A stretch of 64,000 nucleotides of DNA from Bacteroidota bacterium (GTDB lineage: Bacteria > Bacteroidota > Bacteroidia > Flavobacteriales_D > Sanyastnellaceae). The DNA lies in the NCBI GenBank assembly GCA_027622975.1, contig JAQBVN010000013.1, positions 1 through 64,000 on the forward strand. The letters run 5' to 3'. Position 1 is the first letter of the stretch, and every line of letters begins with the position of its first letter. Below the pieces are notes generated by a model. The model did not search any database. It saw only the letters and a list, made by a program, of their open reading frames with translations, and was not told the DNA's origin. Made by a program: the position numbers and the translations under genes. Below are positions 32,001 through 47,601 of this stretch, in pieces.

Positions 32001-35000
32001 CCACCATGATGGTCACCACATTGGCCAAGGTTGGATTCCCCTTGACTGACAATCGCTTTCCATCACTCACCACCGAGTACACACCTGAATTTCCCTGCTG
32101 ACCCAACACATATCGGTTGCGAAGCTTCTCCAAACTCAACGCCCGCAGCGAATCGAGGTTGATGTCGATGTTGTTCGCTATGGGCCAAATGTCGTAATCC
32201 GTCAAGGCGGTTTGGTCAATGGGCGTCGGCGTCAGAGGCACTTCGTATTCATAGTAGTTCTGGTCGTAATCACTCCCCAAACGAATGAAAATGTTCAGAT
32301 CACCCTCGTTCAAGACCTCGCCCACCCGTCCCGCCTCGGCGTGCACAAACATGCGCAACCGCTCATACATCCTCATGTCAAAATTGATGTTGCGGTACGC
32401 GGCCCGTGCGTCACCGTCCTCCAGTCCACACACTTCGAGTGCCAACGACTGTTCATTGAGTCGGCGTTGGTTCAAATTGGATGGGTCGATCTCCTGGTTG
32501 ATGCCTGGTGGAATGACATATGGCACCGGCTGTCGCACCCCATTTTCCTCGAGGTTGACTGCGGTCAGTGCGAATTGTGTCCCAGTGGGATCTTCAACCT
32601 CCACTTCTTGGATGCCCGCCAAGCTCTGTTCATACCGCCTCCACTCTCCACGCACCAATTCCATTCTGGCAAAACGAAGGGTTACCTCCTCATTCCATCC
32701 TGTCATGAACATCCTCATGAAACGAATGGAACGGAAGTCGCTGATTCCATTGAATGCGGCCTGGTATTCTTTGACGGGAATCTTGAACTGATACCACTTG
32801 ATGGGTCGCTGTTCTCCCGCGCCATTTGTTTTGGACACCGTTTCCAAAATGTCGCTCAAGTAGCCTTTGCCAATGTTCTCGGGTGCCAAATCTGACCTGG
32901 TCAAAGGAATCTCGTACTGGTAGTAGCTTTCAATGGTCCCGAGAGTCAAATCCTCGTTGATGTCCTCCGTGTTGGGGATGGTGGTGGCCGTGATGGGATA
33001 GCCATCGGGCTGTTGGGTGTTGGAATTCCCTTCGTACCGGCTAAAAAACCGATAGCGTTGAAGAATGTCCTCTTCATTGGCTTGAGCGACGGGGTCGCGG
33101 AAGTATCGAAAATCGTCAGCCGATGGATCCGCCTCGAAAAGGGCGAGGGCTTCCGGGGTCAATTCAGGTTCCAAACTCGACAACCAGCTCGCAAAAAACT
33201 GCCTTTCTGCAGCCGAATTCAATCCATCCAAACCGACGTCCTGAAGGCTGTAGTCGTTGGTGCTGTTGTCAAACGCATTGACAACATTGAACGTAGTGGG
33301 GTCTGGGTAAATGCCCCAGGTGCTCGTGTCCGTATCGAGTTCCGTGTTGTTGGCGGAGGGCAACCCGTTTTCAAACTCGAGTTGGCTGTCGTTGAGTACG
33401 TCCTCACTGACGTTGCCCAAATTGATGTAGAGCTTCCCACCCGATTCGTTTTCCGAATCCTCATTGAAAGGATCCATCAACCAAAATTGGACGTACTCGA
33501 TGTTGGCAGCTTCAAAATCTGTGGAGGTCAATGCACGCTGGATTCCCGCCCAACGCTCGCCGGGATTTTTCAGGGTCCCATCCTCATTCAAACCGCTCGA
33601 ATAGTCGGATCCCTCAAATTCCTCATAGTTGTAAGGTCCCCGTTCAGTAGGTCTGTAGGTCAAATCGAGGGTCGGCAAGTTGGTGGGCATCCCCGCAGTC
33701 GCACTGTTGCTGTAATCACCCTTTTCATACAATTCACGCAGCAAGATCTGACGCATGCGGTGGTCCTGTCGGATTTCCGAATCCACCACCCCATCCTGCA
33801 ATGCGCTTCCATTCATCAAGGACGGGTCAATGGTGTACCAACTCAATCCCGCTCGGTTGTAATTGGACCTCAAATCGTTCTCCAATCGCGCCTCAGGAAA
33901 CAACTCCACCGTGTTGTCGCCCCGTGGAATGGAGGCAAGGAACCATCGGTTGATGGCACGCAAATCAATGGTGCTTTGGGATCCTTCAAAATCGTCGATG
34001 TAGGCCGTTCCCTCCTGTCCCACGGCCCGACTGTGTCCTGGGATGAGGTACGCGCCCTCGGCACTGATGTCGAAGGTGGACTTGGCCGTGGTGCTGTAGA
34101 ACGGCAGTTTGTCCATCAATTCAGTCAACAAACGGGATTCCGTCTGCCACGAAAAATCGGCCCCAACCACACTGTTGTTCACTGGCTCATCGCCCATGTT
34201 GACCTTGCGGGTCAACGGACGTTCCCGCATGTTCAACAACGTGGTTCCAAACGTCAAATCGTCACTCACCACATAGTCGAAACGGGTTCCAAGCAGGGTC
34301 TTGGTTTGAATGTTGAACAGCGAATTGGATTCAAGAGAAACCCGGATGGTTTGGCCTGATTCAAGCAAACCATCGTTGATGATCCGCACACGGCCAAGGT
34401 TGTAGTCCACCGTGTAGTCGCGATTCTCCACCAAACGCACCCCCCCCGCTGTGACGGTCACAGAACCCTCGGGAACATTCAAGGCATTCAACTGGATTTC
34501 AGACGAACTCTGTGACTGGAACCGGCCCTTGATGCGGTATCGATTCAACGAGGGAATTTGTTGAGCCGCCGTCTTTGTGCTGTCATAGAGAGGCTGGAAC
34601 ACCAAGCTCTGCACCAAGGCTGCCCGCACCGTCTCCTTTTGGTCTTCTGGAATCGAGTCGGATTGGTTCACCATGTTGTCAATCTTCCCCGCGAGGTTGC
34701 TCCCGAAAGGCTCCACTGAAGGCAGGTAAATCCGGCCGTTTTGACTGTTGATGGTCCCTCCCTGCGCGGCGGCATTGTCGACGTAGTCAAACACACCGTC
34801 TTGGTTGGGCATGCCATTGACGTCAATGCGGTCCATGCCCAAAACTTGAATCAACAGCCGTCCATCAAGCGGAACCCGGGGGATGTAGTTGAGGTCCACC
34901 CCGGAATTGGGGTCATTGTACCAAATGTCCAAACGGAAATCCTCGTTGCTCACCCCAAACGCACTCATGGAGTAGACGTTTTTCATCATGGTCCGCCACA

Positions 35001-36591
35001 AAGGGGCTTGGTCGCCATTGTCCAACTTCACTTGCGTCACCGACGATTTCAGCATCTTTAAAATCAAGGCTCCTGGTGCTGCGTAACCATCCTGGCTCAA
35101 CGTTCCAACCTGGTACGTTTGACCATCCAAGGTGTATTCATAGGCCACACCCAGCACTTCCGCATTGTTCAAGGACTGCCGGAGTGAAATGAACCCCAAA
35201 CGTGCGTTGTACGTGAATTCCGACGCCGTGAGTTTCCGGGCATTGCCGACACGTTCGTAGTGCACCCCTTGCTTCAAGGGCTGATCTCCCCACTGAACCG
35301 TTGAGATTTCCTCATTGGCCCCGGTGTAATTCATGATGTTCTCATTCCGCGTCAAACTGCGGAACAGGTCGTTGTTGTAGTTGTTGGGTGCTCGGTTGGC
35401 CGTGGCCTCCGTGCTGGGTTCGAGGGGGAGTCCATCAAAGATGCTCTCGTTGTTGACGATGTTGCCCAATGGCAAGTTGGAACTGATGTATTCCGGGTGT
35501 TCTCCCAAATCAGTGAACGCAATGACGTTCCTCACATCCTGGGTGTTGGCTTGGGTGTTGACCACATACACCTCGATGCGGTTGATCATGGCGCCTGAAT
35601 TGGGCACCGGAAGTGACCTCATTGCCTCGTCATACGCGTCCACGAAATATTGAGACAAGAAGTAATGTCGGTTGGCTTCGTAGTCATCCGCCCGGATGTC
35701 AAATTCTTGGGTTTGGGCGCCTCCTTCCACTTCAATTTCACTCCGCTCCCCCTTTTGCTGGCTGAACACGGTGGTGTTGTAAAGCCGACCCCATTGTGTC
35801 TCCAACTTCAATCCAAACAAACTCTGAGAACCCACGATCAAACTGCTGTTCAAGGGCATGCTGATGTTGCCCGCCTCGATGTTCTTCAGAATGTCATCTT
35901 CTTCCCCTTGGAATCCGATGTTCATTTGATTTTCGAAGTCAAACAGCGATTCCGTGTTGTACTGTGTTCCCAGTTCGATTTTGTCGCCAATCTTACCGCC
36001 TATGTTCAGCTGAATCCGTTGGTCAAAATCCACCGACCCTGCCCGGCGTTGCCGTTCCGGAATTCGTGGATTTTCTGTGTTGTTCCAGGTATACCCCAAG
36101 GTGATTTCGGCCGTTCCTTGAGGTTTGATTTCAATCTCATTGCTGCCAAAAATCATCTCGAACAGCTCGCTGTCGATCTCGAGCTTGGGGGCAAACGCAC
36201 GGTCGGCCTCGTCCTCTTCGTTTTGCAGTTGGTTCCAAAACTCCGTCAGGTTTCCCTCAATGTTGTAGTTGAGGTACTCGTCGAGGGAAAACAGGCTCGA
36301 TGGCCGGAATTGAAGCGTGTCACCAATGGTTTGTTGCACCTCATACATCCCCGTCAAGGGGTTGTACACCACTTGGTAATTGAAATTGCTCGGCCACTGC
36401 AAGGAAATCCCCCCGGGGAACTCACTGGGGTTGTAGGGGTCTCCCGTGTCATGGGGAAAAGGGAGTCGGACGGAGGTCGAGTCCGAGGATTGAGCCCAAA
36501 CGCTTGATCCCAGACCAAGCCAAGAAAGCGTCACCCACAGAAGGGCAAAGCCCATCCTAGATGGGCCTGGGACCGTGATCTTGTGGGTCAT
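29008..36591 (-). CDS. sprA: SprA, type IX secretion outer-membrane translocon
   Basis: A 2527-residue outer-membrane protein. In Flavobacterium johnsoniae, SprA is a giant 36-strand barrel that forms the T9SS translocon; its loss blocks secretion and gliding. The size (about 2400 in known members) and layout agree. A signal peptide ends near VWAQS. The early ITLGYTWNNTENPRIPERQRRAGSVDFDQRI region and LNIGGKIGDKIELGTQYNTE are recognised SprA N-terminal blocks. A glycine-rich stretch (PGGGGGGNGG) sits near residue 1745. The C-terminus ends in alternating strands (SSGVALRFNLTQ). It follows ruvA by 31 bases in the same operon. Cargo candidates in this window are the proteins at 7032, 39688, 43007, 44613 and possibly 1. 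Confidence 0.96.
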   Translation of the reverse strand: MTHKITVPGPSRMGFALLWVTLSWLGLGSSVWAQSSDSTSVRLPFPHDTGDPYNPSEFPGGISLQWPSNFNYQVVYNPLTGMYEVQQTIGDTLQFRPSSLFSLDEYLNYNIEGNLTEFWNQLQNEEDEADRAFAPKLEIDSELFEMIFGSNEIEIKPQGTAEITLGYTWNNTENPRIPERQRRAGSVDFDQRIQLNIGGKIGDKIELGTQYNTESLFDFENQMNIGFQGEEDDILKNIEAGNISMPLNSSLIVGSQSLFGLKLETQWGRLYNTTVFSQQKGERSEIEVEGGAQTQEFDIRADDYEANRHYFLSQYFVDAYDEAMRSLPVPNSGAMINRIEVYVVNTQANTQDVRNVIAFTDLGEHPEYISSNLPLGNIVNNESIFDGLPLEPSTEATANRAPNNYNNDLFRSLTRNENIMNYTGANEEISTVQWGDQPLKQGVHYERVGNARKLTASEFTYNARLGFISLRQSLNNAEVLGVAYEYTLDGQTYQVGTLSQDGYAAPGALILKMLKSSVTQVKLDNGDQAPLWRTMMKNVYSMSAFGVSNEDFRLDIWYNDPNSGVDLNYIPRVPLDGRLLIQVLGMDRIDVNGMPNQDGVFDYVDNAAAQGGTINSQNGRIYLPSVEPFGSNLAGKIDNMVNQSDSIPEDQKETVRAALVQSLVFQPLYDSTKTAAQQIPSLNRYRIKGRFQSQSSSEIQLNALNVPEGSVTVTAGGVRLVENRDYTVDYNLGRVRIINDGLLESGQTIRVSLESNSLFNIQTKTLLGTRFDYVVSDDLTFGTTLLNMRERPLTRKVNMGDEPVNNSVVGADFSWQTESRLLTELMDKLPFYSTTAKSTFDISAEGAYLIPGHSRAVGQEGTAYIDDFEGSQSTIDLRAINRWFLASIPRGDNTVELFPEARLENDLRSNYNRAGLSWYTIDPSLMNGSALQDGVVDSEIRQDHRMRQILLRELYEKGDYSNSATAGMPTNLPTLDLTYRPTERGPYNYEEFEGSDYSSGLNEDGTLKNPGERWAGIQRALTSTDFEAANIEYVQFWLMDPFNEDSENESGGKLYINLGNVSEDVLNDSQLEFENGLPSANNTELDTDTSTWGIYPDPTTFNVVNAFDNSTNDYSLQDVGLDGLNSAAERQFFASWLSSLEPELTPEALALFEADPSADDFRYFRDPVAQANEEDILQRYRFFSRYEGNSNTQQPDGYPITATTIPNTEDINEDLTLGTIESYYQYEIPLTRSDLAPENIGKGYLSDILETVSKTNGAGEQRPIKWYQFKIPVKEYQAAFNGISDFRSIRFMRMFMTGWNEEVTLRFARMELVRGEWRRYEQSLAGIQEVEVEDPTGTQFALTAVNLEENGVRQPVPYVIPPGINQEIDPSNLNQRRLNEQSLALEVCGLEDGDARAAYRNINFDMRMYERLRMFVHAEAGRVGEVLNEGDLNIFIRLGSDYDQNYYEYEVPLTPTPIDQTALTDYDIWPIANNIDINLDSLRALSLEKLRNRYVLGQQGNSGVYSVVSDGKRLSVKGNPTLANVVTIMVGVRNPDKDLEVRLTPGDDGQPKCAEVWVNELRLAGFNEEGGWAAVAQANASLADLANVSVAANMSVPGWGGLEQRVQERQRETIQGLDANGTIQLGKLLPEKLGVTLPMYVGYSNQTSTPQFDPLAPDVEVLDLARLAEEQQVSAEDRQALGDRQMDARTINEIRSINFSNVKVSPQFGGGGSKDRNNRGSGIDAKGDKMTEERERFGSNNPGQRPGGGGGGNGGPMSKGILSIVNPNNFSANYSYNEQYRQDIYTDNFRNVEHRGGLNYSWSPKPKKREPFSKIGFLRNSEYFRLIRDVNFYLLPKQISANNQMVRMYEVSTVRDNSSALAIEGASPITIPQVVKSWTWNRNYTVKYDLTQALKLDYQGTAQSLVRERPGAIPSALDSAQQYNEYREGVRESLMAGGEVTTYNHQVNGTYKLPLDKFPLTDWVSSDARYQSSFRWDRAPFAQDTLGNTIQNSRNLSLNAQANFKNLYNKVPYLKEINDKRRPRPSDRNVSNEKRDGFGNIEEDDEKEKKDINPIEHILRFAMGLHNVSGTFARNEGTMLPGYAQRATYGGFDKELVAPGLPFLLGHQWTDAYGNGFGEGTFAHQAADNGWLVQQPYLNNQYTETYSENLNVRANLEPIRDFKIEITANRNLSKNYQSFFRWDEDLQDYVSESANETGNFTATVFTWPTAFVDDDSTYTNPVWESFLNNRRNISLRQNELNYNDELNEIGFAPGFGPISQNVVIPAFMSAYLNLGTDDVPLDVFKAPIAPNWRVSYDGLSKNPTLKKTFKRFNINHTYRSTMSTSYTTNLQYGEDEVTGRPMTDQGEYEDYISQRQFNSVTISEQLSPLVGVDMSIKTANDNEPQIRVEITRDRNVNLGLSNYQITETKTKGVVIGLGYKFDDVPNPFMKTYGKLPIKMLKKTDFLVRADINIRENSTVIRKMVERQNQVTAGQRLVSIKLSGDLEVSDKMTLRVFYDQQINKPKVSTSFATTNISSGVALRFNLTQ

Positions 36592-36622
36592 GTTCTTGTC
36601 GCGTTCAATCGTCGGTGACCTG

Positions 36623-37216
36623 TCAAAGTTCGCGCAAAGCCGCCTTAATTAAGCCTTCCAACGTGGCTGAATTTCCTTGGGAAACCAAGAGGGCATCCAG
36701 CACTTTGTTGCATTTGGCCTTGTCGAAGCCGAGCGAAGTCAGTGCCCCCAACGCATCAGCCTTCGTTGTATTGTGTGCCGCCAAAGAAATTTCTGCCCCC
36801 CCTCCCGTGGGACCCGAAGCCATCACCTTGTCCTGCAAATCGACGATGATCCGCTGTGCCGTCTTTGCGCCAATGCCTTTGACGCGCTTCATGGCATCGA
36901 CGTCCCCTTGGGCAATGGCCGAAGCTGCCGTTTCAGCGTCCATGGCACTCAAGATGAGACGTGCTGTGTTGGCGCCCACACCGTTGACTCCGAGCAGTTG
37001 CAAAAACAATGCCCTCTCCGCCTCGGTGACAAATCCAAAAAGCAATTGGGCATCCTCCCTCACGACCATGTGGGTCAAAATCTTGACCGATTCTTTGTCG
37101 CCCAATTGGTCGTAAGTGGTCAAACTGATGGCCACCATGTACCCCACCCCTCCACATTCCACGACCACATGCGTGGGGTGTTTTTCAACGAGTCGACCTT
37201 GCAAATGATGAATCAT
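36623..37216 (-). CDS. ruvA: Holliday junction branch-migration protein RuvA
   Basis: Tetrameric Holliday-junction-binding subunit of RuvAB. At 197 residues the length is normal. The N-terminal OB fold begins [20 protein letters not shown]; the acidic-pin and beta region VVREDAQLLFGF follows. Two helix-hairpin-helix motifs are visible as LLGVNGVGANTARLIL and VKGIGAKTAQRIIVDL, and the RuvB-binding C-terminal domain closes with ADALGALTSLGF. The start overlaps the maeB stop by four bases (ATGA), and sprA follows after 31 bases. ruvA directly upstream of sprA is a familiar Bacteroidota arrangement. Confidence 0.96.
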   Translation of the reverse strand: MIHHLQGRLVEKHPTHVVVECGGVGYMVAISLTTYDQLGDKESVKILTHMVVREDAQLLFGFVTEAERALFLQLLGVNGVGANTARLILSAMDAETAASAIAQGDVDAMKRVKGIGAKTAQRIIVDLQDKVMASGPTGGGAEISLAAHNTTKADALGALTSLGFDKAKCNKVLDALLVSQGNSATLEGLIKAALREL

Positions 37217-39486
37217 GCCATGTCTTTGATTTGGGCATCCACCACCGCCAAGCGAACCATGTCAAGGATTTCTTTGGCACTGGATCCCATTTGCAAAATG
37301 TGCACACTTTTGCGCATGCCCAAAAGCACGGGGCCTTGCGCATCCATTCCAGCCATTTCCTGAAGGAGTTTGTAGCTGATGTTTCCAGCCGCCAAATTGG
37401 GGAAAATCAACGTGTTGACCCGACGCTTGTGCAGTGCGCTGAACGGGAAACTCTCTGCGAGTTTGTCTTGGTTCATGGCAAAATTTGCCTGGATCTCACC
37501 ATCGACAATCAACTCTGGGTGGTGGACGTGAAGGTACCTAGCTGCTTCAGCCATCTTCTCGGCATCATGTCCCTTGGAACTTCCAAAATTCGAATAGCTC
37601 AGCAGTGCAATACGCGGAACAATGCGCAAGTTCCGGACCGCCTCAGCCGTAAGGAGGGTAATGTTCACAATGTCCTCCGCCGTGGGATTGGTGTTGACCG
37701 TGGTGTCGGCAAAGAACATCGGGCCGTTTTTGGTCTGCAAGATGTACATCCCCGCAACCTTGTCCACGCCTTGCGATTTCCCAATGGTGTGAAGGGCCGG
37801 ACGGATGACACTGGGGTAATTCCGCGTCAATCCTGACACAAGAGCATCGGCTTCTCCTTGGTCCACCAGCATAGACCCAAAGTAGTTCCGCTGCCTCATG
37901 TAGCGTTCAGCCTCGATGGAGGTCAAACCATGTCGCTTTCTTCGCTCAAACAAGACATCTCCAAAGGCCCTTCGACGACCGTATTCTTCTTCTCCCCGCG
38001 GGTCCACAATGGTTGCACCTTCCAATTCAAGGTTGTTCTCTGAAATCAACGCATCGATGCGATCACGACGACCGAGCAAAATGGGATGGGCAATGCCCTC
38101 ATCCATGGCCATCTCTGCGGCCTTGAGAACCTTGTAATGCTCCGCCTCTGTGAAGACAACCCGCTTGGGTGCCCTCGCAGCCCTGTTGGCGATGTTCCTC
38201 GAAAATGTGGAATCATGACCCAAGCGCATCTCCAACTGTGTTCGGTAATGATCCCAATCTGTGATGGGTGCTTGGGCAATTCCGCTTGCCATGGCCGCCT
38301 CAGCCACAGCCGGGGCCACGGTGGTGATCAAGCGCGGGTCGACAGGCTTGGGGATGATCAATTCTCGTCCAAACGTCAACGACCCCTCTCCATAGGCCTC
38401 ACTCACTTCATCGGGCACGTTTTCTTCTGCCAAGGCTGCGATGGCTCGCACTGCTGCCAACTTCATGGCATCGTTGATTCCTGTGGCACGAACATCCAAG
38501 GCACCGCGGAAAATGTAGGGAAACCCGAGCACGTTGTTCACTTGGTTGGGGTGGTCACTCCTTCCCGTGGCCATGATGACATCCTTTCGGGCTGCCAAGG
38601 CCTCATCATAGCCAATTTCCGGGTCGGGATTGGCCAAGGCGAAGACAATGGGATTGTCTGCCATGGACTTGACCATCGCTGCATCGACAAGGCCTCCCTT
38701 GCTCAGGCCCAAGAAGACATCAGCGCCCACCATGGCCTCCGCCAAACTGCCGAATTCGACGTTTGTGACATATTTCTGCTTGGACTCATCAAGTCCCTCG
38801 CGCCCCGCGTGGATGTGGCCACGGCTGTCAAACACGGCCGCGTTTTCCCGCTTCATGCCGAGCTGCTCATAGATGTCAAGGCAAGACATGGCTGCTGCGC
38901 CAGCACCACTGACCACTAGGCGAATGTTGTCAATGTCCTTCCCCGCAAGTTTCAAGGCATTGAGCAGCGCTGCCGCACTGATGATGGCCGTCCCGTGTTG
39001 GTCGTCATGCATCAAAGGGATGTTGAGTTCCTCTTTGAGCCGACGTTCAATTTCAAACGCTTCAGGTGCTTTGATGTCCTCGAGATTGATGCCTCCAAAC
39101 GTTGGAGCAATGGCCTTGACAGTGGCCACAAAATGGTCCACATCGGTGGCGTCTACTTCAATGTCAAACACATCGATGTCTGCAAAGACTTTGAACAGCA
39201 CGCCTTTCCCCTCCATCACCGGTTTGCTCGCTTCGGGCCCAATGTCACCCAAACCCAAAACAGCAGTGCCATTGCTGATCACAGCCACCAAATTGCCCTT
39301 GGCCGTGTACTTGTAGACATCCTCCGGCTGGGCTGCGATGGCCTTGCATGGTTCTGCCACCCCAGGGCTGTAGGCCAAACTCAAATCCCTCTGGGTGCTG
39401 TACGGCTTGGTTGGCACCACCTCCACCTTGCCACGCCGATCTCGGGCGTGATAATCCAAGGCATCTTTTTTCAGGTTGCTTTGCAT
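37213..39486 (-). CDS. maeB: NADP-dependent malic enzyme with phosphotransacetylase-like C-terminal domain
   Basis: Oxidatively decarboxylates malate to pyruvate, giving NADPH. The 757-residue protein has the three-part MaeB form. The malic domain includes [21 protein letters not shown] and [20 protein letters not shown]. The NAD(P)-binding domain shows [15 protein letters not shown] and [17 protein letters not shown]-terminal phosphate acetyltransferase-like domain ([20 protein letters not shown] onward) is usually regulatory, not catalytic, in this family. The ATG at 39486 is chosen because homologues begin near LKKDALDYH; the upstream extension to 39564 has no family match. It heads the run with ruvA, sprA, gcvH, vanZ and tonB. 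Confidence 0.95.
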
Positions 39487-39687
39487 GAATGTGCGAAAAT
39501 CTGCACGAAGGTCGTACAAGGGAAGGTCAACACGCGCAAAGGATGCACAAGGCGTCGTGTACAACGATGCAAAGGACTACGCTCCCACCAGTGCCTGCCA
39601 ATCAGGAAAGGAATCGCGACCCGAACACGCCACGCCAGGGCGTCTTGGATCCCAGTTTCAAACCTTGCTTTGGATTTGTGTTTTCGC
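39487..39687. other. Intergenic 201 bases between maeB and the T9SS protein gene
   Basis: No conserved gene is visible. The stretch must hold the promoter for the maeB run, but I found no clean TAnnTTTG match here. No hairpin with a T run follows the stop of the upstream gene at 39688. Confidence 0.5.
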
Positions 39688-40461
39688 TCAGTGAATCAGC
39701 AATCGCTGAGTCTTCCGGGTTTCCCCGTCAACCTCATAGCTCACGAGCCAAACCCCTTCCGTCATGTCATCCAGGGCGATGCGCTCACTGGTTGAACCCG
39801 CGGCAACTGGGATTTCACGCACCACTTGCCCCACGAGGTTCCAAATCTTGACCAACCCGCGTTCAGCGTGGGTCAGTGTCAACATCACATCCTGGTTTGC
39901 AGGGTTGGGATGCAGGGTCATGCTCATGGTTGGGCGCTTCAAGTCCGAAAGGGAGGAAGTGGCCACGACACTGTAGGTCACGGCATGACATGCCCCATCA
40001 AGGGCCGCCCCCACAGGATGGAAACAATAATTCAATGTTGAATTGCCTACAACGCCATTGGGGTAGAAATCTCCCCTGAAGGTGTTGGTCGACTCCCCTG
40101 GATTCAAGGTCAAAAGGAACATTTCGTTGGTGGGAGAGCTGTCGGTGCCATATTGAAAGCACGTGGGACCCCAACAAAAGCGTTCGTAGCTCCCCGCAGC
40201 TCCTGATTCCCAAGGGTAGTTGAACGGCGAGACCGTTTCCCCAAAAGTGCGCGTGACCATCAAAGTCATGGGACTGTCTGTCTCGTTCAACACATCCCAA
40301 TGAGCCTCAGCCGGTGCTGTTCCCATGGTGTCCAAGGCCATGTAAATCGTGTCCGGAGCATTGACAATGGTCGCTTGGGCTTGGACCATGTGAGAGATTA
40401 GCACACCGCCCGACAAGACAAACAGGATTTGCTGGAGCGATTGAAAACGAGACGTGTTCAT
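39688..40461 (-). CDS. Secreted protein with type A T9SS sorting domain
   Basis: A 257-residue exported protein of unknown function. The signal peptide ends near MVQAQA. The central domain, with APDTIYMALDTMGTAPAEAHW and a pair of Cys in ERFCWGPTCF, resembles a small immunoglobulin-like domain. The C-terminus is a type A T9SS sorting domain: SMTLHPNPANQDVMLTL, LVKIWNLVGQVV, GVWLVSYEVDGETRKTQRLLI. Such domains are cleaved or linked to the surface after SprA-dependent export. The ATG at 40461 is chosen because a perfect TATCTTTG box sits exactly four bases before it. A longer in-frame start at 40572 would put 37 basic residues before the signal. The gene is divergent from the TlpA gene. Confidence 0.9.
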   Translation of the reverse strand: MNTSRFQSLQQILFVLSGGVLISHMVQAQATIVNAPDTIYMALDTMGTAPAEAHWDVLNETDSPMTLMVTRTFGETVSPFNYPWESGAAGSYERFCWGPTCFQYGTDSSPTNEMFLLTLNPGESTNTFRGDFYPNGVVGNSTLNYCFHPVGAALDGACHAVTYSVVATSSLSDLKRPTMSMTLHPNPANQDVMLTLTHAERGLVKIWNLVGQVVREIPVAAGSTSERIALDDMTEGVWLVSYEVDGETRKTQRLLIH

Positions 40462-40634: not shown

Positions 40635-41153
40635 ATGATCCGCGTTCTCTCCTTTTTTGTGTCCCGCCATCTTCAGGGACTTGGGATTTCCATCATGCTC
40701 ATGTGCCCAGGCCTCCTGCACGCTCAAAGTTTGCCTGACATCGCCCTCAAAGACATTGAAGGCAATGCACTTTCCACCGCCTCACTTGTCAATGCTGAGG
40801 GCCCAACGGTGTTCTGTTTTTGGGCGACATGGTGCAGCCCTTGCAAGCGCGAATTGAACAATTATGCGGAACTCTACGAAGATTGGGTGGAGGAAACGGG
40901 GGTCCAAATCGTCGCAGTCAGCATCGATGACCAACGAAGCGTCAACCGCGTGGCTCCCTACGTCAACAGCGTGGGATGGGAGTACCAAATCTTGCTTGAC
41001 CCCAACCGCGATTTGGCCCGGGCTCTCGGGGTCCAAAACGTCCCACACACCTTCGTCGTCAATGCGGCGGGTGAGGTTGTTTGGTCCCACAACAACTACG
41101 CTGACGGAGATGAATACGAGCTCTACGAAGAGCTCTTGAAGCTTTCCGAATGA
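40635..41153 (+). CDS. TlpA-family thiol-disulfide oxidoreductase
   Basis: A 172-residue periplasmic thioredoxin-fold protein. A signal peptide ends near GLLHAQS; the redox motif is WCSPC (Cys67, Cys70) in FCFWATWCSPCKREL, with the cis-proline region NVPHTFVVNAAGEVVW. TlpA proteins usually reduce disulfides in the envelope, for example in cytochrome c maturation. The ATG at 40635 gives a conventional signal peptide. An in-frame ATG at 40554, 5 bases after a perfect promoter box, would add 27 residues before it; the choice is open. The stop overlaps the next gene by four bases (ATGA). The neighbouring proteins also carry CxxC motifs, suggesting a shared thiol role. Confidence 0.88.
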   Translation: MIRVLSFFVSRHLQGLGISIMLMCPGLLHAQSLPDIALKDIEGNALSTASLVNAEGPTVFCFWATWCSPCKRELNNYAELYEDWVEETGVQIVAVSIDDQRSVNRVAPYVNSVGWEYQILLDPNRDLARALGVQNVPHTFVVNAAGEVVWSHNNYADGDEYELYEELLKLSE

Positions 41154-42892
41154 ATCCATTGCACAATGACCACGTGGGCCGTCATGTGAGATGGGTCGCC
41201 TTCTTGGCCATGGTCCTTTCCAACGCGGCCTGGTCGCAAGAGAGCGAGGGTCACTCGAATCCCTCGATTCAAGGGAACGTCAGCGTGTTGTGGCAATCTT
41301 ACGCTGAAGACTCTCTCATCGGAGCCCAAGTACCCCCGAGCAAGACTGGCTACAACGCATTCGCCAACCTCCTGTACAACCAAGGGAATTTCAGCGCTGG
41401 TGTGCGATACGAAAGCTACCTCAACGCTGTCCTTGGTTTTCCTGGACGATTCAAAGGTTCGGGCGTGGGATATCGATTTGCTCGATACCAAGACCGCGAC
41501 CGGGGTGTCGATGTCACCGTGGGAAATTTCTATGATCAATTTGGAAGTGGGTTGGTTCTTCGCGCCTACGAGGAACGCAACCTGGGAATTGACAATGCGC
41601 TGGATGGATTTCGTCTCGTCCTCACACCCATCCCCGGCATTGAGGCCAAATTCCTCTACGGCAAGCAGCGATTTGATTTTGAGGATGGCCTGATCAACGG
41701 CCCAGGTACCATTCGCGCTGTGAACGGCGAGGCCGATTTGAATCAACTCCTCTCTGGGTGGGAAGAGCGCCCGTTGAAAATCACGTGTGGTGCCAGTTTT
41801 GTGAGCAAATTTCAACCAGGCTCATCTTTCAATGTGGATTCGCTCGTTTTGGGCATGCCCCTGAACATTGGGGCCTGGTCCTACAGAGTGAACGCCGTCC
41901 GCAAAGGCTGGACCGCCCAACTTGAATATGCTGGGAAAATCAACGACCCCAGCGCAGACAATGCCTTCACGTACCGACCTGGAGAAGGGGCATTGGCCAC
42001 AGTCGGGTACAGCCAAAAGGGCTTGGGTGTCCTCTTGACTGCCAAAATGGTGGACAACATGAGTTTTCGATCGGACCGCGATTTGAGGCTGTTTGACCTT
42101 CCTGTGAACTACATCCCTGCGGTTACGCAACAGCACACGTACAACCTTGCCGCCACCCTCTATCCCTACGCTACTGTGATCTCAGGAGAGACGAGCGCAA
42201 GTGCTGAGGTGTTTTACACCATTCCCAAAGACACCCGGTTGGGGGGGAAGTATGGGACCAAACTGACGGCTAGCTTCGCCGCAGCCAACAGCCTGGACAC
42301 GACCCAATATGCGGCGGGGGACATCAACGCTGTGATTTACGGCTACGAGCGCAACAGCTGGGGGCCAGGGGATGAATTGTACGTTCGGGACTTCAACGTG
42401 ACTGCGAGTCGGAAGTTCAACAAGAATTTCAAGGCGAAATACAGCTACTTCCATTTTGAATTCAACACCCTGACAACGCCTGTCACCACTGACTACAAAG
42501 GCATTGTCGATGCCAACATCCACGTGATCGAAACCCAATGGAAAGTGGCTCCCAAACAAAGCCTACGAACCGAATTGCAGGGATTGTGGGTCGGCGAAGA
42601 CAAAGACCATCCCGGTCAACTTCAAGACAAAGGTCATTGGGCAACACTGGTCGCCGAATACACGTGGAGCCCCCATTGGTTTGTCAGTGTCATCGATCAA
42701 TACAACTTCGGAAACAACGATCCCGACCGACGCATACATTACGTGTACGGGTCGGCTGGTTACATTCAAGGTCCTCACCGATTGAGCGTTGGCTATGGAA
42801 AGCGTCGGGAGGGAATATTCTGTGTTGGAGGAGTGTGTCGCGCAGTCCCAGCATCCAACGGATTTGAAATTGCCTTCACCTCTAGCTTTTGA
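41150..42892 (+). CDS. DUF6029-type outer-membrane protein
   Basis: A 580-residue exported protein. The signal peptide ends near AAWSQES; the mature protein is rich in alternating aromatic strands (for example NVSVLWQSYAEDS, GVGYRFARYQDRDRGVDVTV, FYDQFGSGLVLRAYEERNL), typical of an outer-membrane beta-barrel. I recognise the GNFYDQFGSGL-type block as the Bacteroidota DUF6029 family, from memory, without a database check. Function is unknown. It is translationally coupled to the TlpA gene (ATGA overlap); this pairing, which I recall from other Bacteroidota, suggests the barrel or its disulfides depend on TlpA. The C-terminus ends in Phe (SSF), as barrel proteins often do. Confidence 0.75.
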   Translation: MNPLHNDHVGRHVRWVAFLAMVLSNAAWSQESEGHSNPSIQGNVSVLWQSYAEDSLIGAQVPPSKTGYNAFANLLYNQGNFSAGVRYESYLNAVLGFPGRFKGSGVGYRFARYQDRDRGVDVTVGNFYDQFGSGLVLRAYEERNLGIDNALDGFRLVLTPIPGIEAKFLYGKQRFDFEDGLINGPGTIRAVNGEADLNQLLSGWEERPLKITCGASFVSKFQPGSSFNVDSLVLGMPLNIGAWSYRVNAVRKGWTAQLEYAGKINDPSADNAFTYRPGEGALATVGYSQKGLGVLLTAKMVDNMSFRSDRDLRLFDLPVNYIPAVTQQHTYNLAATLYPYATVISGETSASAEVFYTIPKDTRLGGKYGTKLTASFAAANSLDTTQYAAGDINAVIYGYERNSWGPGDELYVRDFNVTASRKFNKNFKAKYSYFHFEFNTLTTPVTTDYKGIVDANIHVIETQWKVAPKQSLRTELQGLWVGEDKDHPGQLQDKGHWATLVAEYTWSPHWFVSVIDQYNFGNNDPDRRIHYVYGSAGYIQGPHRLSVGYGKRREGIFCVGGVCRAVPASNGFEIAFTSSF

Positions 42893-42926
42893 CGGCAAAA
42901 ACAACTCCATGCAACGCCAAAGTCCT

Positions 42927-42934
42927 TATTTTCG
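42927..42934 (+). promoter_or_regulatory. Possible -7 box for the first thioredoxin-T9SS gene
   Basis: TATTTTCG matches TAnnTTCG in the 114-base gap, about 70 bases before the ATG at 43007. A 6-base inverted repeat (CGCTCA/TGAGCG) lies between box and start. Confidence 0.35.
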
Positions 42935-43006
42935 TCTCTATCTTCAACGCGCTCAATCACTGAGCGTCAAAAAACACCTGAAAACGAACATCAAAACCAA
43001 CCCTCT

Positions 43007-44467
43007 ATGAAACAATTTTTCGCCCTCATGGCTGCGGCCATGATTTCAGCTGGAGCTTATGCTCAGCTTCCTGATGGCAGTGCTGCACCAGATTGGACAG
43101 CCACCGACATCAATGGAACGGAGCACCACCTCCAAGCGTACCTCGATCAAGGAATCACCGTCATCATCGACTTCAGTGCCACGTGGTGTGGTCCTTGTTG
43201 GAACTACCACAACACCCACATTTTGCGTGACTTGTACGACACCTTTGGCCCCAATGGCACTGGCGACTTGATGGTCTTCTACCTCGAAGGTGATGACACC
43301 ACCACGCTGGACGACCTCTACGGAACGGGCACAGCCACGGCAGGCGACTGGGTAACCGGGACAACCTACCCCATCATTGACGACGCTGGAAACATCTTTG
43401 ACGACTATGCCGGAGCGTACTACCCCACCATCTACACCATCTGCCCTGATGGCATCTTGGTGGAATCAAGCCAGGTCAGCTTCGATCAACACGTGGCCAT
43501 TGCCTTCCAAGATTGCGAGAACACAATCACTGGTCCAGCACCTTTGATGAGCTACAACGGCGCAACTGCTTCTTGTGGAGGTGCCGCGTGGGCAGCATCT
43601 ACAGAATTGACCAACCTCGGTTCTGAGAATGTGACCGGTGTGACGTTTGAAGTCACCTTGAACGGCAACAGCTCCATCGTAAACTGGACCGGAAACCTCG
43701 CTAGCGGTTCCACCGTGACAGCCGACTTGGGTGAGTTCACTGAAACGGGCGACTTGAACATCGCCATGCTCGAAGTCAACACCAACAGCTGGGAAGCATA
43801 CGAGGACATTACGGTTGTTGGCTCTACAGAAAGCACAACGTACGTTCAAGTTCGTATCACCACGGACAACTGGCCAACCGAAACTGGCTGGGTCATCAAC
43901 GACGAAGCTGGAAATGCCGTGGCTTCTGTGGCAACAGGTTCGTTGACCTCTGCGGACACCCCATTGACGTGGGACGTTGGATTGCCCTCTACCGGATGCT
44001 ACACGTTCACCATGTTTGACACTTACGGAGATGGTCTCTTTGCTTCTCAGTGGGGCAACTACGTCGATGGAACGGCTGGCGTGTACAGCATGGATGGTGA
44101 CATGGAAATGGGCGTGGTGTGGGAATACGATGGTGCTTCTGGCATCGAATTCGCTGAAGTCACAGCAGGGATGGAAGCCACGTCTGTGGCTGGAATCGAA
44201 GAAGGCGCTTTGTCTTCAACGGTGAACATCTACCCCAACCCAACTTCCAACAACACACAGGTGGAATTCACAACCAAGCAAGCTGGCATGGCGACCCTCG
44301 AGGTCTACAACCTGATTGGCGAGCGTGTTGTGTTCCAAACTTTGGGCAACTTGCCCTTGGGCACCAACCGCGCTGTGGTTGACATGGCGGCCTTGAACGC
44401 TGGAATCTACCTCGTGAACTTGAATGCTGGTGGTGAAACCACCACCATGCGCGTCACGAAGCAGTGA
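43007..44467 (+). CDS. Thioredoxin-fold protein with type A T9SS sorting domain (copy 1)
   Basis: A 486-residue exported protein joining a redox domain to a secretion tag. The signal peptide ends at about residue 19-20 (AYAQ). A thioredoxin/peroxiredoxin-like domain spans about 25-170; DFSATWCGPCWNYH holds the CxxC (Cys61, Cys64), and YYPTIYTICPDG holds the cis-proline. A middle region of Ig-like strands follows. The C-terminal 80 residues (VNIYPNPTSNNTQVEF, LEVYNLIGERVV, IYLVNLNAGGETTTMRV) are a type A T9SS sorting domain. The protein is thus expected to act outside the cell or on its surface rather than in the periplasm. A strong terminator separates it from its paralogue. Confidence 0.93.
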   Translation: MKQFFALMAAAMISAGAYAQLPDGSAAPDWTATDINGTEHHLQAYLDQGITVIIDFSATWCGPCWNYHNTHILRDLYDTFGPNGTGDLMVFYLEGDDTTTLDDLYGTGTATAGDWVTGTTYPIIDDAGNIFDDYAGAYYPTIYTICPDGILVESSQVSFDQHVAIAFQDCENTITGPAPLMSYNGATASCGGAAWAASTELTNLGSENVTGVTFEVTLNGNSSIVNWTGNLASGSTVTADLGEFTETGDLNIAMLEVNTNSWEAYEDITVVGSTESTTYVQVRITTDNWPTETGWVINDEAGNAVASVATGSLTSADTPLTWDVGLPSTGCYTFTMFDTYGDGLFASQWGNYVDGTAGVYSMDGDMEMGVVWEYDGASGIEFAEVTAGMEATSVAGIEEGALSSTVNIYPNPTSNNTQVEFTTKQAGMATLEVYNLIGERVVFQTLGNLPLGTNRAVVDMAALNAGIYLVNLNAGGETTTMRVTKQ

Positions 44468-44489
44468 TTTCCTTGTTGAATTGATCGCG

Positions 44490-44526
44490 ATCCGCGCGAC
44501 ACTCCGGTGTCGCGCGGATTTTTTTT
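44490..44526 (+). terminator. Strong intrinsic terminator after copy 1
   Basis: A perfect 13-base stem (arms 44490-44502 and 44507-44519, ATCCGCGCGACAC and its complement) with a TCCG loop, followed by eight T. It lies 23 bases after the stop at 44467. Confidence 0.92.
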
Positions 44527-44612
44527 GTCCAAGCCGAGGGTTGTGAGGTATCTTGGAGCCACCGAGCCCTTCACGGCGTGATGGGCCGTTCCGTCAACAG
44601 CAACACATTCTC

Positions 44613-46100
44613 ATGAGACTTTCTTTTGTCGCCTTCTTTTTGGGCTTTCTCAGCCACACAGCCTTGGCACAACTCCCCAATGGCAGCATCGCCCCCGATT
44701 GGACCGCCACGGACCTCAACGGAACAGAACACAATTTGTACGCACTGCTCGACTCAGGGTACCAGGTCATCGTGGACTTTTCCGCCACGTGGTGCGGTCC
44801 CTGTTGGAATTACCACACAAGTGGTGTTCTCGAGACGTTGCATGAGCTTTATGGTCCGGACGGGACCAATGAACTCCGGGTGTTTTTCATCGAGGGTGAT
44901 GATTCCACTACGCAAGCCGATTTGGAGGGCACAGGAACGGCAACTGCCGGCAATTGGATTGCGGGAACCAACTACCCCATCATTGACAATGGAGGTGACA
45001 TTTTCACCGCCTATGAATGCACCTACTTCCCCACCATCTATACCATTTGCCCCAACAAGATCCTGACCCAATCAGGACAAGGGAGCGTGCAAGCACACGA
45101 AACCATCCTCAATTCCGCTTCCTGTACAGCGGCATCGATGCCCAATGACGTGTTGCTGATGGACTATGTGGGGGACATGTCGACGTGTGGTGACAACCCG
45201 GCTTCACTGGCTGTTCGCATGATGAACCAAGGCTTGGACACCTTGACCTCATGCACCATTCAAATCTCCAAGCTTCTCCCCTTCAACCAAACCGAGGTGC
45301 TGGGAAGCGCCGATTGGACTGGGAGTTTGGCAACCTACGAATTCACCACAGTGTCTTTGATTGATGTGGTCTTGGACATCTCTACCATTTACGTATTTGA
45401 CGTGATATCCGAAGATGACATTGAGGGAAACAACAGCACGATGGGTTCCGTCAACTCAAGCGAGCAAAGCACCAACAACCTTGAGATTCGATTGAAAACG
45501 GACATGGCTCCCAATGAACTTGGTTGGACCTTGACGGATGATTTGGACAACGTGGTGGCTGAGGTGCTCCCCGGGTCGGAGATGACTCAAACCTTGACGG
45601 AATACCTCTGGGATGTGACGCTGCCATCGTTGGGATGTTACAAACTCACGCTGTACGACGCAGGTGGTGACGGTTGGATTGCCGGAGCGACCTCCATGGC
45701 AGGCGTGGGTTATCTCATCGTGAACAGCATGGATGGTGAAGATCTCGTCGATGAGGAGGTCTTTTTTCAAAGCACTGACGATTTCACCACGGTTGAATTT
45801 CAATTTGAAGCAGCTACGGAAACGGCTGTACGTGAAGAAGATGCACCGAGGCTCTTGTCATTGCACCCCAACCCCGCAGCTGATGCTGCCACCCTGACTT
45901 TTGCCACTTCCCAGGCAGGTCCTGGTTGGGTGGATGTGTTTCATGTCACAGGCAAGCACGTGATCCATTGTCCTCTCGGGCAGCTGGCCCCTGGAAACCA
46001 CTTCCAAACCTTGGATCTTACGAGCTTGGAAGCCGGTACCTATTTGGTGCAATTGCATGCGGGTGATCAGATTCAGTGTTTGACCTTGATGCACCCATGA
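44613..46100 (+). CDS. Thioredoxin-fold protein with type A T9SS sorting domain (copy 2)
   Basis: A 495-residue paralogue of the upstream protein with identical spacing at its start: signal peptide to ALAQ, then APDWTATDLNGTEHN, and CGPC at residues 61-64 in DFSATWCGPCWNYH. The TYFPTIYTICPNK cis-proline segment is kept. The middle region has diverged more than the redox domain. The C-terminus (SLHPNPAADAATLTF, WVDVFHVTGKHVI, TYLVQLHAGDQIQCLTL) is again a type A T9SS tag. The ATG at 44613 is chosen because it starts the signal peptide. The stop overlaps the Omp28-like gene by four bases, so copy 2, not copy 1, is in an operon with it. Confidence 0.93.
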   Translation: MRLSFVAFFLGFLSHTALAQLPNGSIAPDWTATDLNGTEHNLYALLDSGYQVIVDFSATWCGPCWNYHTSGVLETLHELYGPDGTNELRVFFIEGDDSTTQADLEGTGTATAGNWIAGTNYPIIDNGGDIFTAYECTYFPTIYTICPNKILTQSGQGSVQAHETILNSASCTAASMPNDVLLMDYVGDMSTCGDNPASLAVRMMNQGLDTLTSCTIQISKLLPFNQTEVLGSADWTGSLATYEFTTVSLIDVVLDISTIYVFDVISEDDIEGNNSTMGSVNSSEQSTNNLEIRLKTDMAPNELGWTLTDDLDNVVAEVLPGSEMTQTLTEYLWDVTLPSLGCYKLTLYDAGGDGWIAGATSMAGVGYLIVNSMDGEDLVDEEVFFQSTDDFTTVEFQFEAATETAVREEDAPRLLSLHPNPAADAATLTFATSQAGPGWVDVFHVTGKHVIHCPLGQLAPGNHFQTLDLTSLEAGTYLVQLHAGDQIQCLTLMHP

Positions 46101-46951
46101 CGTTGAGAAAAGACCTGCTTCTCATTGCCCTGGCTGGGGCTGTGATTGGGATGGGCTCCTGTGACAAGTTGGAGAACCCTGTGATTGACATCCTCCCACC
46201 TTGTGACGCAACCACTCCTCCGGAATTCAGTGTCTTGACCTCCGACATTCAGCGCGTGCTGGTGGAAGATTTCACGGCCCATCAATGTGGCAACTGTCCC
46301 CCAGCTGCCGTCAAAGCTTCAGAACTGGCCGCAGCACATCCCGGTCAAGTCATTCCGTTGGCCATTCACGCGGGGGAATTGGCAAGCACCAACAACGAAT
46401 ATCCCACGGATTGGACTTGCCCAGAGGGAGATGTGTTTTGGGACGATTTGGAGTTTCAAGTCAACCCGGTGGGACGTGTGAATCGATTGGAAACGGAGAC
46501 AAGCATCTTGCTCCTCGACCAATGGGAAGCCAAGGTCGATGCCCTGCTCGGGGTTTCACCTGTCGCCGGATTGCAAATGGTGATCGACCATGACGCCTCT
46601 TCAGGCAACACGGGAATACACGTGCACACCACCTGGTTCGCAGACCATGAGGGAGTGGTTCGGCTGTCCTTGCTCGTCTCTGAGAGTCACCTCTTGGGAC
46701 CTCAGTTGTGGTATGGCAACAGCCCTGAATATGTGGAGGAGTATGAATTTGAACACATGCTTCGAGGAAGCGTTACTGGGGCCAAAGGACTGGTCGTTGC
46801 GGAAAGCCCTTTGGCAGGCGAAACCCAGCAAGAATGCTACGCTTTCGCATGGAACAACGCGTGGGATGCTGCTCACTGTGACCTTTTGGCCGTACTCACC
46901 TCAGACAACGGAAGCGTCATCCAGGTGCTCTCCATGGCTGTGACGGAATGA
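46097..46951 (+). CDS. Omp28-related lipoprotein with CxxC motif
   Basis: A 284-residue outer-membrane lipoprotein: signal peptide and lipobox (GMGSC, Cys22). The segment VEDFTAHQCGNCPPAA holds a CxxC (Cys64, Cys67) at the usual place of the redox motif in the Omp28 family, which has a thioredoxin-related fold. Further down, NPVGRVNRLE fits the cis-proline region of that fold. Function is not established for the family; some members are surface antigens. Four-base overlaps (ATGA) tie it to the gene before and after. With TlpA and the two exported thioredoxin-like proteins it makes four CxxC proteins in 6 kb. Confidence 0.85.
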   Translation: MTLRKDLLLIALAGAVIGMGSCDKLENPVIDILPPCDATTPPEFSVLTSDIQRVLVEDFTAHQCGNCPPAAVKASELAAAHPGQVIPLAIHAGELASTNNEYPTDWTCPEGDVFWDDLEFQVNPVGRVNRLETETSILLLDQWEAKVDALLGVSPVAGLQMVIDHDASSGNTGIHVHTTWFADHEGVVRLSLLVSESHLLGPQLWYGNSPEYVEEYEFEHMLRGSVTGAKGLVVAESPLAGETQQECYAFAWNNAWDAAHCDLLAVLTSDNGSVIQVLSMAVTE

Positions 46952-47601
46952 AACGACATGTTCTCGTCCTAGGCTCGCTGGTTGCAACCCTCGCAGGTCA
47001 TGGTCAACTGCTGACGCCGGACGTGCCTTGGATCTTCAAAGGAGGATATACCCTCGGCGTCACTGCTGCGCAAGTACGTGGTGATGGCATTGAAGGATTC
47101 AACAAGCTCGGTTTTCATGGAGGAGTCACGCTCGAAATTCGCCAGTTTCAGAATGTTGGGTTCCAATTGGGTTTGACCTACAATCAAAAGGGAAGCAGGA
47201 AGGTCCCCAATCCCAAGGTGGATGACTACAGCAATTGGGGGTACAAATTCACCTATGTCGACATTCCAATCACGGCTGTGATTGACTTGAAGGAGGGCTA
47301 TACCTTCGGAACAGGCCTCCAACCCGGGGTGTTGATAGGCGCATGGGAAGATGGACTTACCAGTGGAGTGTCAGATGGTGTCTGGGAGCCCACCACCTTG
47401 CCCATCCGCCCGTTTGAACTGAGTTGGGTGGTATGGGTTGGCATGCGCGCGGGCGAGACCGGCGAGTGGTTTTTGCGTCACACCCAAAGCTTGCCTGGAA
47501 TCGTGCCCAAACCGGCCAACCCCGGACCCAACGCCCGTTGGGACGATCGCATGCAAAATCTCACCATGCAACTGGGCTACGTCAAGATGTTCTCTCCCTG
47601 A
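46948..47601 (+). CDS. Small outer-membrane beta-barrel protein
   Basis: A 217-residue exported protein. After a short signal peptide (ending near GHGQ), the sequence alternates polar and hydrophobic residues as in an 8-strand porin-like barrel: GGYTLGVTAAQVRG, FHGGVTLEIRQFQNVGFQLGLTYNQKG, YKFTYVDIPITAVIDL. The pattern resembles the PorT/outer-membrane-barrel families common in Bacteroidota, but I cannot assign a subfamily. The ATG overlaps the Omp28-like stop by four bases, so it is the last gene of this operon. The region 47602-47689 to the convergent BNR gene is pyrimidine-rich with no clear terminator hairpin. Confidence 0.75.
   Translation: MKRHVLVLGSLVATLAGHGQLLTPDVPWIFKGGYTLGVTAAQVRGDGIEGFNKLGFHGGVTLEIRQFQNVGFQLGLTYNQKGSRKVPNPKVDDYSNWGYKFTYVDIPITAVIDLKEGYTFGTGLQPGVLIGAWEDGLTSGVSDGVWEPTTLPIRPFELSWVVWVGMRAGETGEWFLRHTQSLPGIVPKPANPGPNARWDDRMQNLTMQLGYVKMFSP

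Follow-up and report, generated by a model that had tools for sequence, protein, structure and literature searches.

A conserved Bacteroidota gene neighbourhood joins thiol-disulfide proteins to an outer-membrane barrel and a PorA-like surface protein

Why would a bacterium encode a periplasmic thiol-disulfide oxidoreductase, a large outer-membrane barrel and thioredoxins tagged for export to the cell surface all in one place? The question is raised by a 64,000-nucleotide stretch of Bacteroidota DNA (contig JAQBVN010000013.1, positions 1 to 64,000; the window), which belongs to an assembly of 2.27 Mb whose close relatives, in the named collection used below, are metagenome-assembled genomes of Flavobacteriales. 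Here a gene for TlpA is followed by genes for a barrel of the DUF6029 family, two thioredoxin-fold proteins that end in a C-terminal domain (CTD) of the type IX secretion system (T9SS), an Omp28-family lipoprotein and a small barrel. A small T9SS cargo that resembles PorA of Porphyromonas gingivalis is encoded divergently from tlpA. Profiles of the Pfam and NCBIfam type placed every CxxC and barrel gene named in the initial annotation where that annotation had put it. We propose, with a probability of roughly 0.5, that this module maintains the redox state of the DUF6029 barrel and of the PorA-like, T9SS-linked surface protein. The evidence set out below suggests a previously undescribed system of surface redox maintenance or sensing.

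Do these genes keep company in other genomes? We collected regions of up to ~18 kb around DUF6029 from 80 sampled genomes in 22 families, called open reading frames in each region and sorted these by means of profiles derived from the loci themselves. As controls, the same profiles were run on 40 regions picked at arbitrary positions within this sample of genomes. A second set of 80 named loci came from a separate collection, which was searched with a 23-sequence DUF6029 alignment and whose organisms partly overlap those of the first set. TlpA was found near DUF6029 in 68/80 sampled and 75/80 named loci, and untagged Omp28 in 65/80 and 73/80, respectively. A T9SS-tagged thioredoxin-fold protein, a count that takes in thioredoxin, Omp28 and TlpA types, was present in 40/80 and 41/80. 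None of the three was found in any of the 40 controls. The neighbourhood supposed in the initial annotation is thus borne out in relatives, and the gene set is conserved across much of Bacteroidota, more than expected by chance.

The association extends beyond the window's own family, outside which TlpA accompanied DUF6029 in 45 of 54 loci, Omp28 in 39 and a tagged thioredoxin-fold protein in 16. Where tlpA was present, it usually lay on the same strand and within 60 bp of DUF6029 (51/68 sampled and 59/75 named loci). Among 114 genomes of the window's family, 106 contained relatives of the tagged thioredoxins, 100 contained DUF6029 and 95 contained Omp28, usually side by side. The genes run TlpA-DUF6029-thioredoxin-(thioredoxin)-Omp28 in the window's genus and some others, and thioredoxin-TlpA-DUF6029-Omp28 in several genera; this permutation argues for a functional association rather than a frozen gene order. 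In the window's family, most loci have the small OMP_b-brl_2 barrel gene 3' of Omp28, and several others have it too. In Hymenobacter, the loci L240, L275 and L289 contain the gene set. In one further family (f24; L209-L211), TlpA-DUF6029 is partnered by two TlpA-like proteins, most of them with CPHC, the active site known from DsbA, and one of them T9SS-tagged.

We then asked what in the DUF6029 barrel could involve thiol chemistry. The window's protein is a full-length match to the Pfam family (527 bits against a cut-off of 27, covering profile positions 10-538 of 538). An alignment of 42 sequences, with identities down to 17%, has ten invariant columns, and these include C558 and C563 (GIFCVGGVCRAVPASNGF). 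The pair lies within the last 60 residues in 157 of 159 full-length DUF6029 proteins and is spaced C-x4-C in 156; of the two sequences that lack it, one is cut off within the motif by the end of its contig, whereas the other has a broken frame. Other cysteines are scarce in the rest of the protein (mean 0.33). An AlphaFold2 model from a 75-sequence alignment (predicted local distance difference test score, pLDDT, 94.0; predicted template modelling score 0.88) has ~24 barrel strands, with short turns on the would-be periplasmic side and long ones on the would-be extracellular side. The two cysteines sit in a small extra hairpin (model residues 536-540 and 543-547) between the last two strands, which canonical topology would place on the extracellular side. 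They occupy opposed positions beside a tight turn, as judged from the strand pattern of the model, and a cross-strand disulfide would suit them.

Neither of two candidate relationships for the barrel held up. The nearest solved folds found by Foldseek were FimD-type ushers, with template modelling (TM) scores of 0.42-0.43 and root-mean-square deviations (rmsd) of 13-17 Å. Both have about 24 strands, but DUF6029 shares only ~10% identity with the ushers and lacks a plug or usher domains; at a TM score of ~0.42 and an rmsd of at least 13 Å we rejected kinship with chaperone-usher ushers, and the two are not homologous on this evidence. The DUF6029 profile also matched RecA fusions in the PDB, with low E-values over 35 residues; we put these matches down to a short stretch within the engineered constructs and dismissed them as artefactual.

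The barrel might instead be a porin for polysaccharide or another substrate, with a disulfide that has a structural role alone and thiol proteins that do no more than aid folding, much as Dsb proteins help LptD to fold. The placing of the C-x4-C, which spans a tight hairpin of the modelled barrel, and the resemblance to large barrels such as FimD agree with this, as does a published HHpred similarity between Wzi-like barrels and DUF6029, from which a polysaccharide porin was suggested (PMC9603273). Such a role would leave the linkage to tagged thioredoxins and to a PorA-like cargo unexplained, and the genes scanned in the window's cluster included none recognisable as a polysaccharide export gene. 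We regard a plain porin as rather improbable.

The same cysteines bear on the suggestion, made in the initial annotation, of a chain from TlpA through outer-membrane proteins to the surface thioredoxins. The barrel would then be an outer-membrane step that carries reducing equivalents or disulfides, through its cysteine pair or its lumen, from TlpA to Omp28 and the thioredoxins at the surface, and the PorA-like protein would inform the secretion system of the redox state there. That periplasmic, barrel and surface thiol proteins share one conserved neighbourhood favours such a relay, and the invariant pair supplies a barrel thiol that the suggestion had lacked. However, it is the barrel's single pair, and it faces outside by canonical topology with no second pair on the periplasmic side. 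No case is known to us in which thiols are exchanged through an outer membrane, and we consider a relay unlikely.

What, then, is the small cargo encoded beside tlpA? Its C terminus matches Por_Secre_tail (E = 2.4e-6), and together with both thioredoxins it scores above the Por_Secre_tail and TIGR04183 cut-offs, which makes all three predicted T9SS type A cargo. Tagged copies of this family were present in 31/80 sampled loci, 49/80 named loci and 1/40 controls. Two PorA-like sequences also turned up in a control region (L293) that is remote from DUF6029 loci, which shows that the family is not confined to the module. Two cysteines, C94 and C99 in the numbering of the fragment analysed, are invariant in alignments of both 39 and 51 sequences. 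When the profile of the protein's body was compared with the PDB, the best match was the crystal structure of the N-domain of P. gingivalis PorA (6kjk_A, E = 2.7e-4), with both cysteines aligned. A Foldseek search with a model of the protein (pLDDT 89.7) also returned PorA (E = 4.3e-6, rmsd 4.1 Å), whose TM score of 0.61 by PorA length was the highest target-normalised value among the 50 matches listed.

The reverse search came back to loci of the module. With the PorA fragment as the only query, 395 genomes sampled across the class gave six weak matches, some of which must be chance since the E-values are per genome; a phylum-wide sample of 395 genomes gave none. The top two of the six, from G634 and G564, are small tagged proteins with matches to the PorA-like family at ~1e-23, and they adjoin genes for Omp28, TlpA, DUF6029 and Omp28; the third, at a contig end, is also a family member. 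The remaining half of the six (L342-L344) lie outside the module and were set aside as probably chance. In P. gingivalis W83 itself, the locus tag of PorA (PG2172) directly precedes that of Omp28 (PG2173), and the two are to that extent neighbours. By profile, model and reverse search, the PorA-like protein and PorA share a remote kinship at the level of a broad superfamily. Homologues of porA had been found by BLAST only in Porphyromonas (PMC7712824). The present comparison widens PorA, published as restricted to that genus, to a broad family with a conserved cysteine pair, and makes its signalling role testable through two residues.

PorA is found in complex with PorV and Sov (PMC8754138) and acts upstream of PorXY-SigP (PMC7712824), which raises the prospect that the PorA-like protein senses surface redox state, as a switch at the translocon that is set by the thioredoxins and relayed to a pathway of the PorXY-SigP type. 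The conserved cysteine pair fits this, and the window's genome encodes one protein with a PglZ domain, whose frame of 523 codons matches PorX in size. Yet the relation to PorA is distant and confined to the N-domain, we found no published test of the PorA cysteines, and two-component partners were not identified in this analysis. We hold sensing to be improbable, about as much so as the relay, and compatible with maintenance.

The thiol proteins themselves are well conserved. A CxxC motif is present in 143/146 TlpA proteins and in the N-terminal half of 138/138 Omp28 homologues, and 50/54 tagged thioredoxins have CGPC. The window's TlpA has the thioredoxin fold, the CSPC motif and, as read from its sequence, the export signal of the TlpA/ResA family. 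In the tagged thioredoxins, WCGPC and the cis-proline of a 'PT' motif are conserved, and their profile matches ResA structures over residues 23-167 (E = 8e-11), which puts CGPC inside a predicted thioredoxin fold, as the initial annotation had supposed. The two are tandem paralogues with 42% identity, and no further full-length copies were found elsewhere in the window's genome. The region between the thioredoxin domain and the CTD (43830-44170), with a DxxGDG motif, recurs in other large open frames of the window's genome, with matches at G000:C17, C21 and C7. The window's Omp28 scores 49.9 bits against PF11551 (cut-off 34.9) and 104.9 bits against NF033782 (E = 4e-30), below the cut-off of 150, and is therefore a relative rather than a close member of that subfamily. 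In most Omp28 proteins the lipobox is followed by an acidic stretch, for example DxIEDP, with a mean of two acidic residues at +2 to +7. Such a stretch recalls the surface-export signals of Bacteroidota lipoproteins, a resemblance that is no test of location.

Could the tagged thioredoxins simply serve haem acquisition or peroxide defence, with the rest of the locus incidental? HBP35 of P. gingivalis, a surface thioredoxin exported by the T9SS, is able to bind hemin and, in vitro, to reduce insulin. The reduction depends on the cysteines of HBP35, for which a part in the redox status of the surface has been proposed (PMC2907840, PMC3120885). The ScsB-TlpA-PprX pathway of Caulobacter, in turn, uses a periplasmic TlpA (PMC5403849). 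We nevertheless consider such a role very unlikely, as it leaves the co-conservation with DUF6029, Omp28 and the PorA-like protein unexplained, and the cluster genes that were scanned included no recognisable peroxiredoxin or haem gene. HBP35 does remove one claim to novelty, since a thioredoxin that reaches the surface through the T9SS, presented in the initial annotation as out of the ordinary, is already known.

We return to extracytoplasmic maintenance, which would proceed as follows. An inner-membrane DsbD-type protein, of which the window's genome encodes one, would feed electrons to periplasmic TlpA. TlpA would set the C-x4-C of DUF6029 and the cysteine pair of the PorA-like protein during their passage through the periplasm. 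After export, an outward-facing Omp28 lipoprotein and the T9SS-exported thioredoxins would take over at the outer face. DUF6029 and the PorA-like protein would thus be clients, and the redox state of the latter may matter for the T9SS. The net direction would probably be reductive. The window's genome gave no match to VKOR, so that no oxidising partner was identified, in a search that did not include DsbB. The initial annotation had named a distant cysteine-rich PKD protein as one possible folding client, a part for which the adjacent PorA-like protein is the obvious candidate instead.

Is the module tied to type IX secretion? Within a 395-genome sample, the translocon protein SprA was found in 97 of 98 genomes with DUF6029 and in 303/395 overall, as judged by comparing two search tables by eye. 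The excess is suggestive, and part of it comes from lineages wholly without SprA. Several observations count against the maintenance we propose. The 206 SprA-positive genomes without DUF6029 indicate that the T9SS does not need the barrel, and one genome (G342, locus L182) has TlpA-DUF6029-Omp28 with SprA not detected, so that the core need not depend on the T9SS. Family f33 (7 loci) and some others keep the DUF6029 cysteine pair without an adjacent TlpA, which in these genomes may be encoded elsewhere. Once the barrel is inserted, its cysteines, if extracellular as in canonical topology, would be beyond the reach of TlpA. A terminator splits the gene of thioredoxin 1 from that of thioredoxin 2. 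The Omp28-like protein of G342 is 689 aa long.

The features of the locus are listed in Table 1. ATGA overlaps, which the initial annotation had read as interleaving the genes, occur at three junctions: TlpA/DUF6029, thioredoxin 2/Omp28 (presupposing that Omp28 starts at the ATG at 46097) and Omp28/small barrel. A single unbroken operon is ruled out; a 114-bp gap precedes thioredoxin 1, and the strong terminator between the tandem thioredoxin genes implies at least two transcription units. On the other side, sprA (29008-36591), which encodes the T9SS translocon, ruvA and a malic enzyme gene adjoin the PorA-like gene in a stretch that spans 29008-40461, and a run of similar gene sizes recurs in many loci of the window's family.

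Table 1 Features of the thiol-disulfide locus in the window
Feature	Position	Strand	Description
PorA-like small T9SS cargo	39688-40461	minus	Signal peptide, Ig-like domain, type A CTD; divergent from tlpA
PorA-like cargo cysteine pair	codons 40174-40176 and 40159-40161	minus	Invariant, in Ig-like domain
TlpA/ResA-type putative periplasmic thiol-disulfide oxidoreductase	40635-41153	+	PF00578 (AhpC-TSA) E = 4e-23; ResA E = 1.6e-21
TlpA CSPC motif	40833-40844	+	Within tlpA
DUF6029 predicted outer-membrane beta barrel	41150-42892	+	PF19494 E = 6.5e-158
DUF6029 C-x4-C	codons 42821-42823 and 42836-42838	+	Predicted hairpin between last two barrel strands
Thioredoxin-fold protein 1, type A T9SS CTD	43007-44467	+	Por_Secre_tail E = 7.5e-12
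Thioredoxin 1 WCGPC	43187-43198	+	Within thioredoxin 1 gene
Intrinsic terminator 3' of thioredoxin 1	44489-44528	+	14-bp stem and T tract, -28.4 kcal/mol, z -5.55
Thioredoxin-fold protein 2, type A T9SS CTD	44613-46100	+	Por_Secre_tail E = 1.3e-6
Thioredoxin 2 WCGPC	44793-44804	+	Within thioredoxin 2 gene
Omp28-family lipoprotein	46097-46951	+	PF11551 E = 4e-13; lipobox then CDKLENP
Omp28 CGNC motif	46286-46297	+	Within Omp28 gene
Small outer-membrane barrel (OMP_b-brl_2)	46948-47601	+	PF13568 E = 1.4e-10

If the proposal is right, Gram-negative biology would enter new territory, that of redox control beyond the outer membrane. How does the module compare with systems already described? HBP35 (PG0616/PGN_0659) and, by sequence, the window thioredoxins have a CxxC thioredoxin domain and a CTD in common, but HBP35 is 344 aa long, whereas the window proteins, at ~490 aa, have an extra middle region. 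PorA (PG2172/PGN_0123) and the window's PorA-like protein share a signal peptide, an Ig-like domain, a CTD and a length of ~246 aa, and their cysteine pairs align (LCFGQC against FCWGPTC); the sequence relation is remote and limited to the N-domain, and the signalling role is reported for PorA of P. gingivalis only, to which the window protein is likened by sequence and model. ScsB-TlpA-PprX resembles the proposed module in that a TlpA-type protein is fed from the inner membrane; unlike the module, it targets a periplasmic peroxiredoxin and has no outer-membrane or surface part (PMC5403849). A further parallel concerns SprF and PorG, which are disulfide-bonded to GldK, with both the T9SS and gliding depending on disulfides; the recent work that showed this does not refer to TlpA, thioredoxin, Dsb or Omp28 and leaves the responsible oxidoreductases unnamed (PMC12635249). 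The window's locus offers a phylum-wide candidate set for this task: an oxidoreductase, a thiol-pair barrel, a thiol lipoprotein and T9SS-tagged thioredoxins. The module is a variant of known extracytoplasmic thiol systems, made more notable by its link to PorA and by the cysteines of DUF6029.

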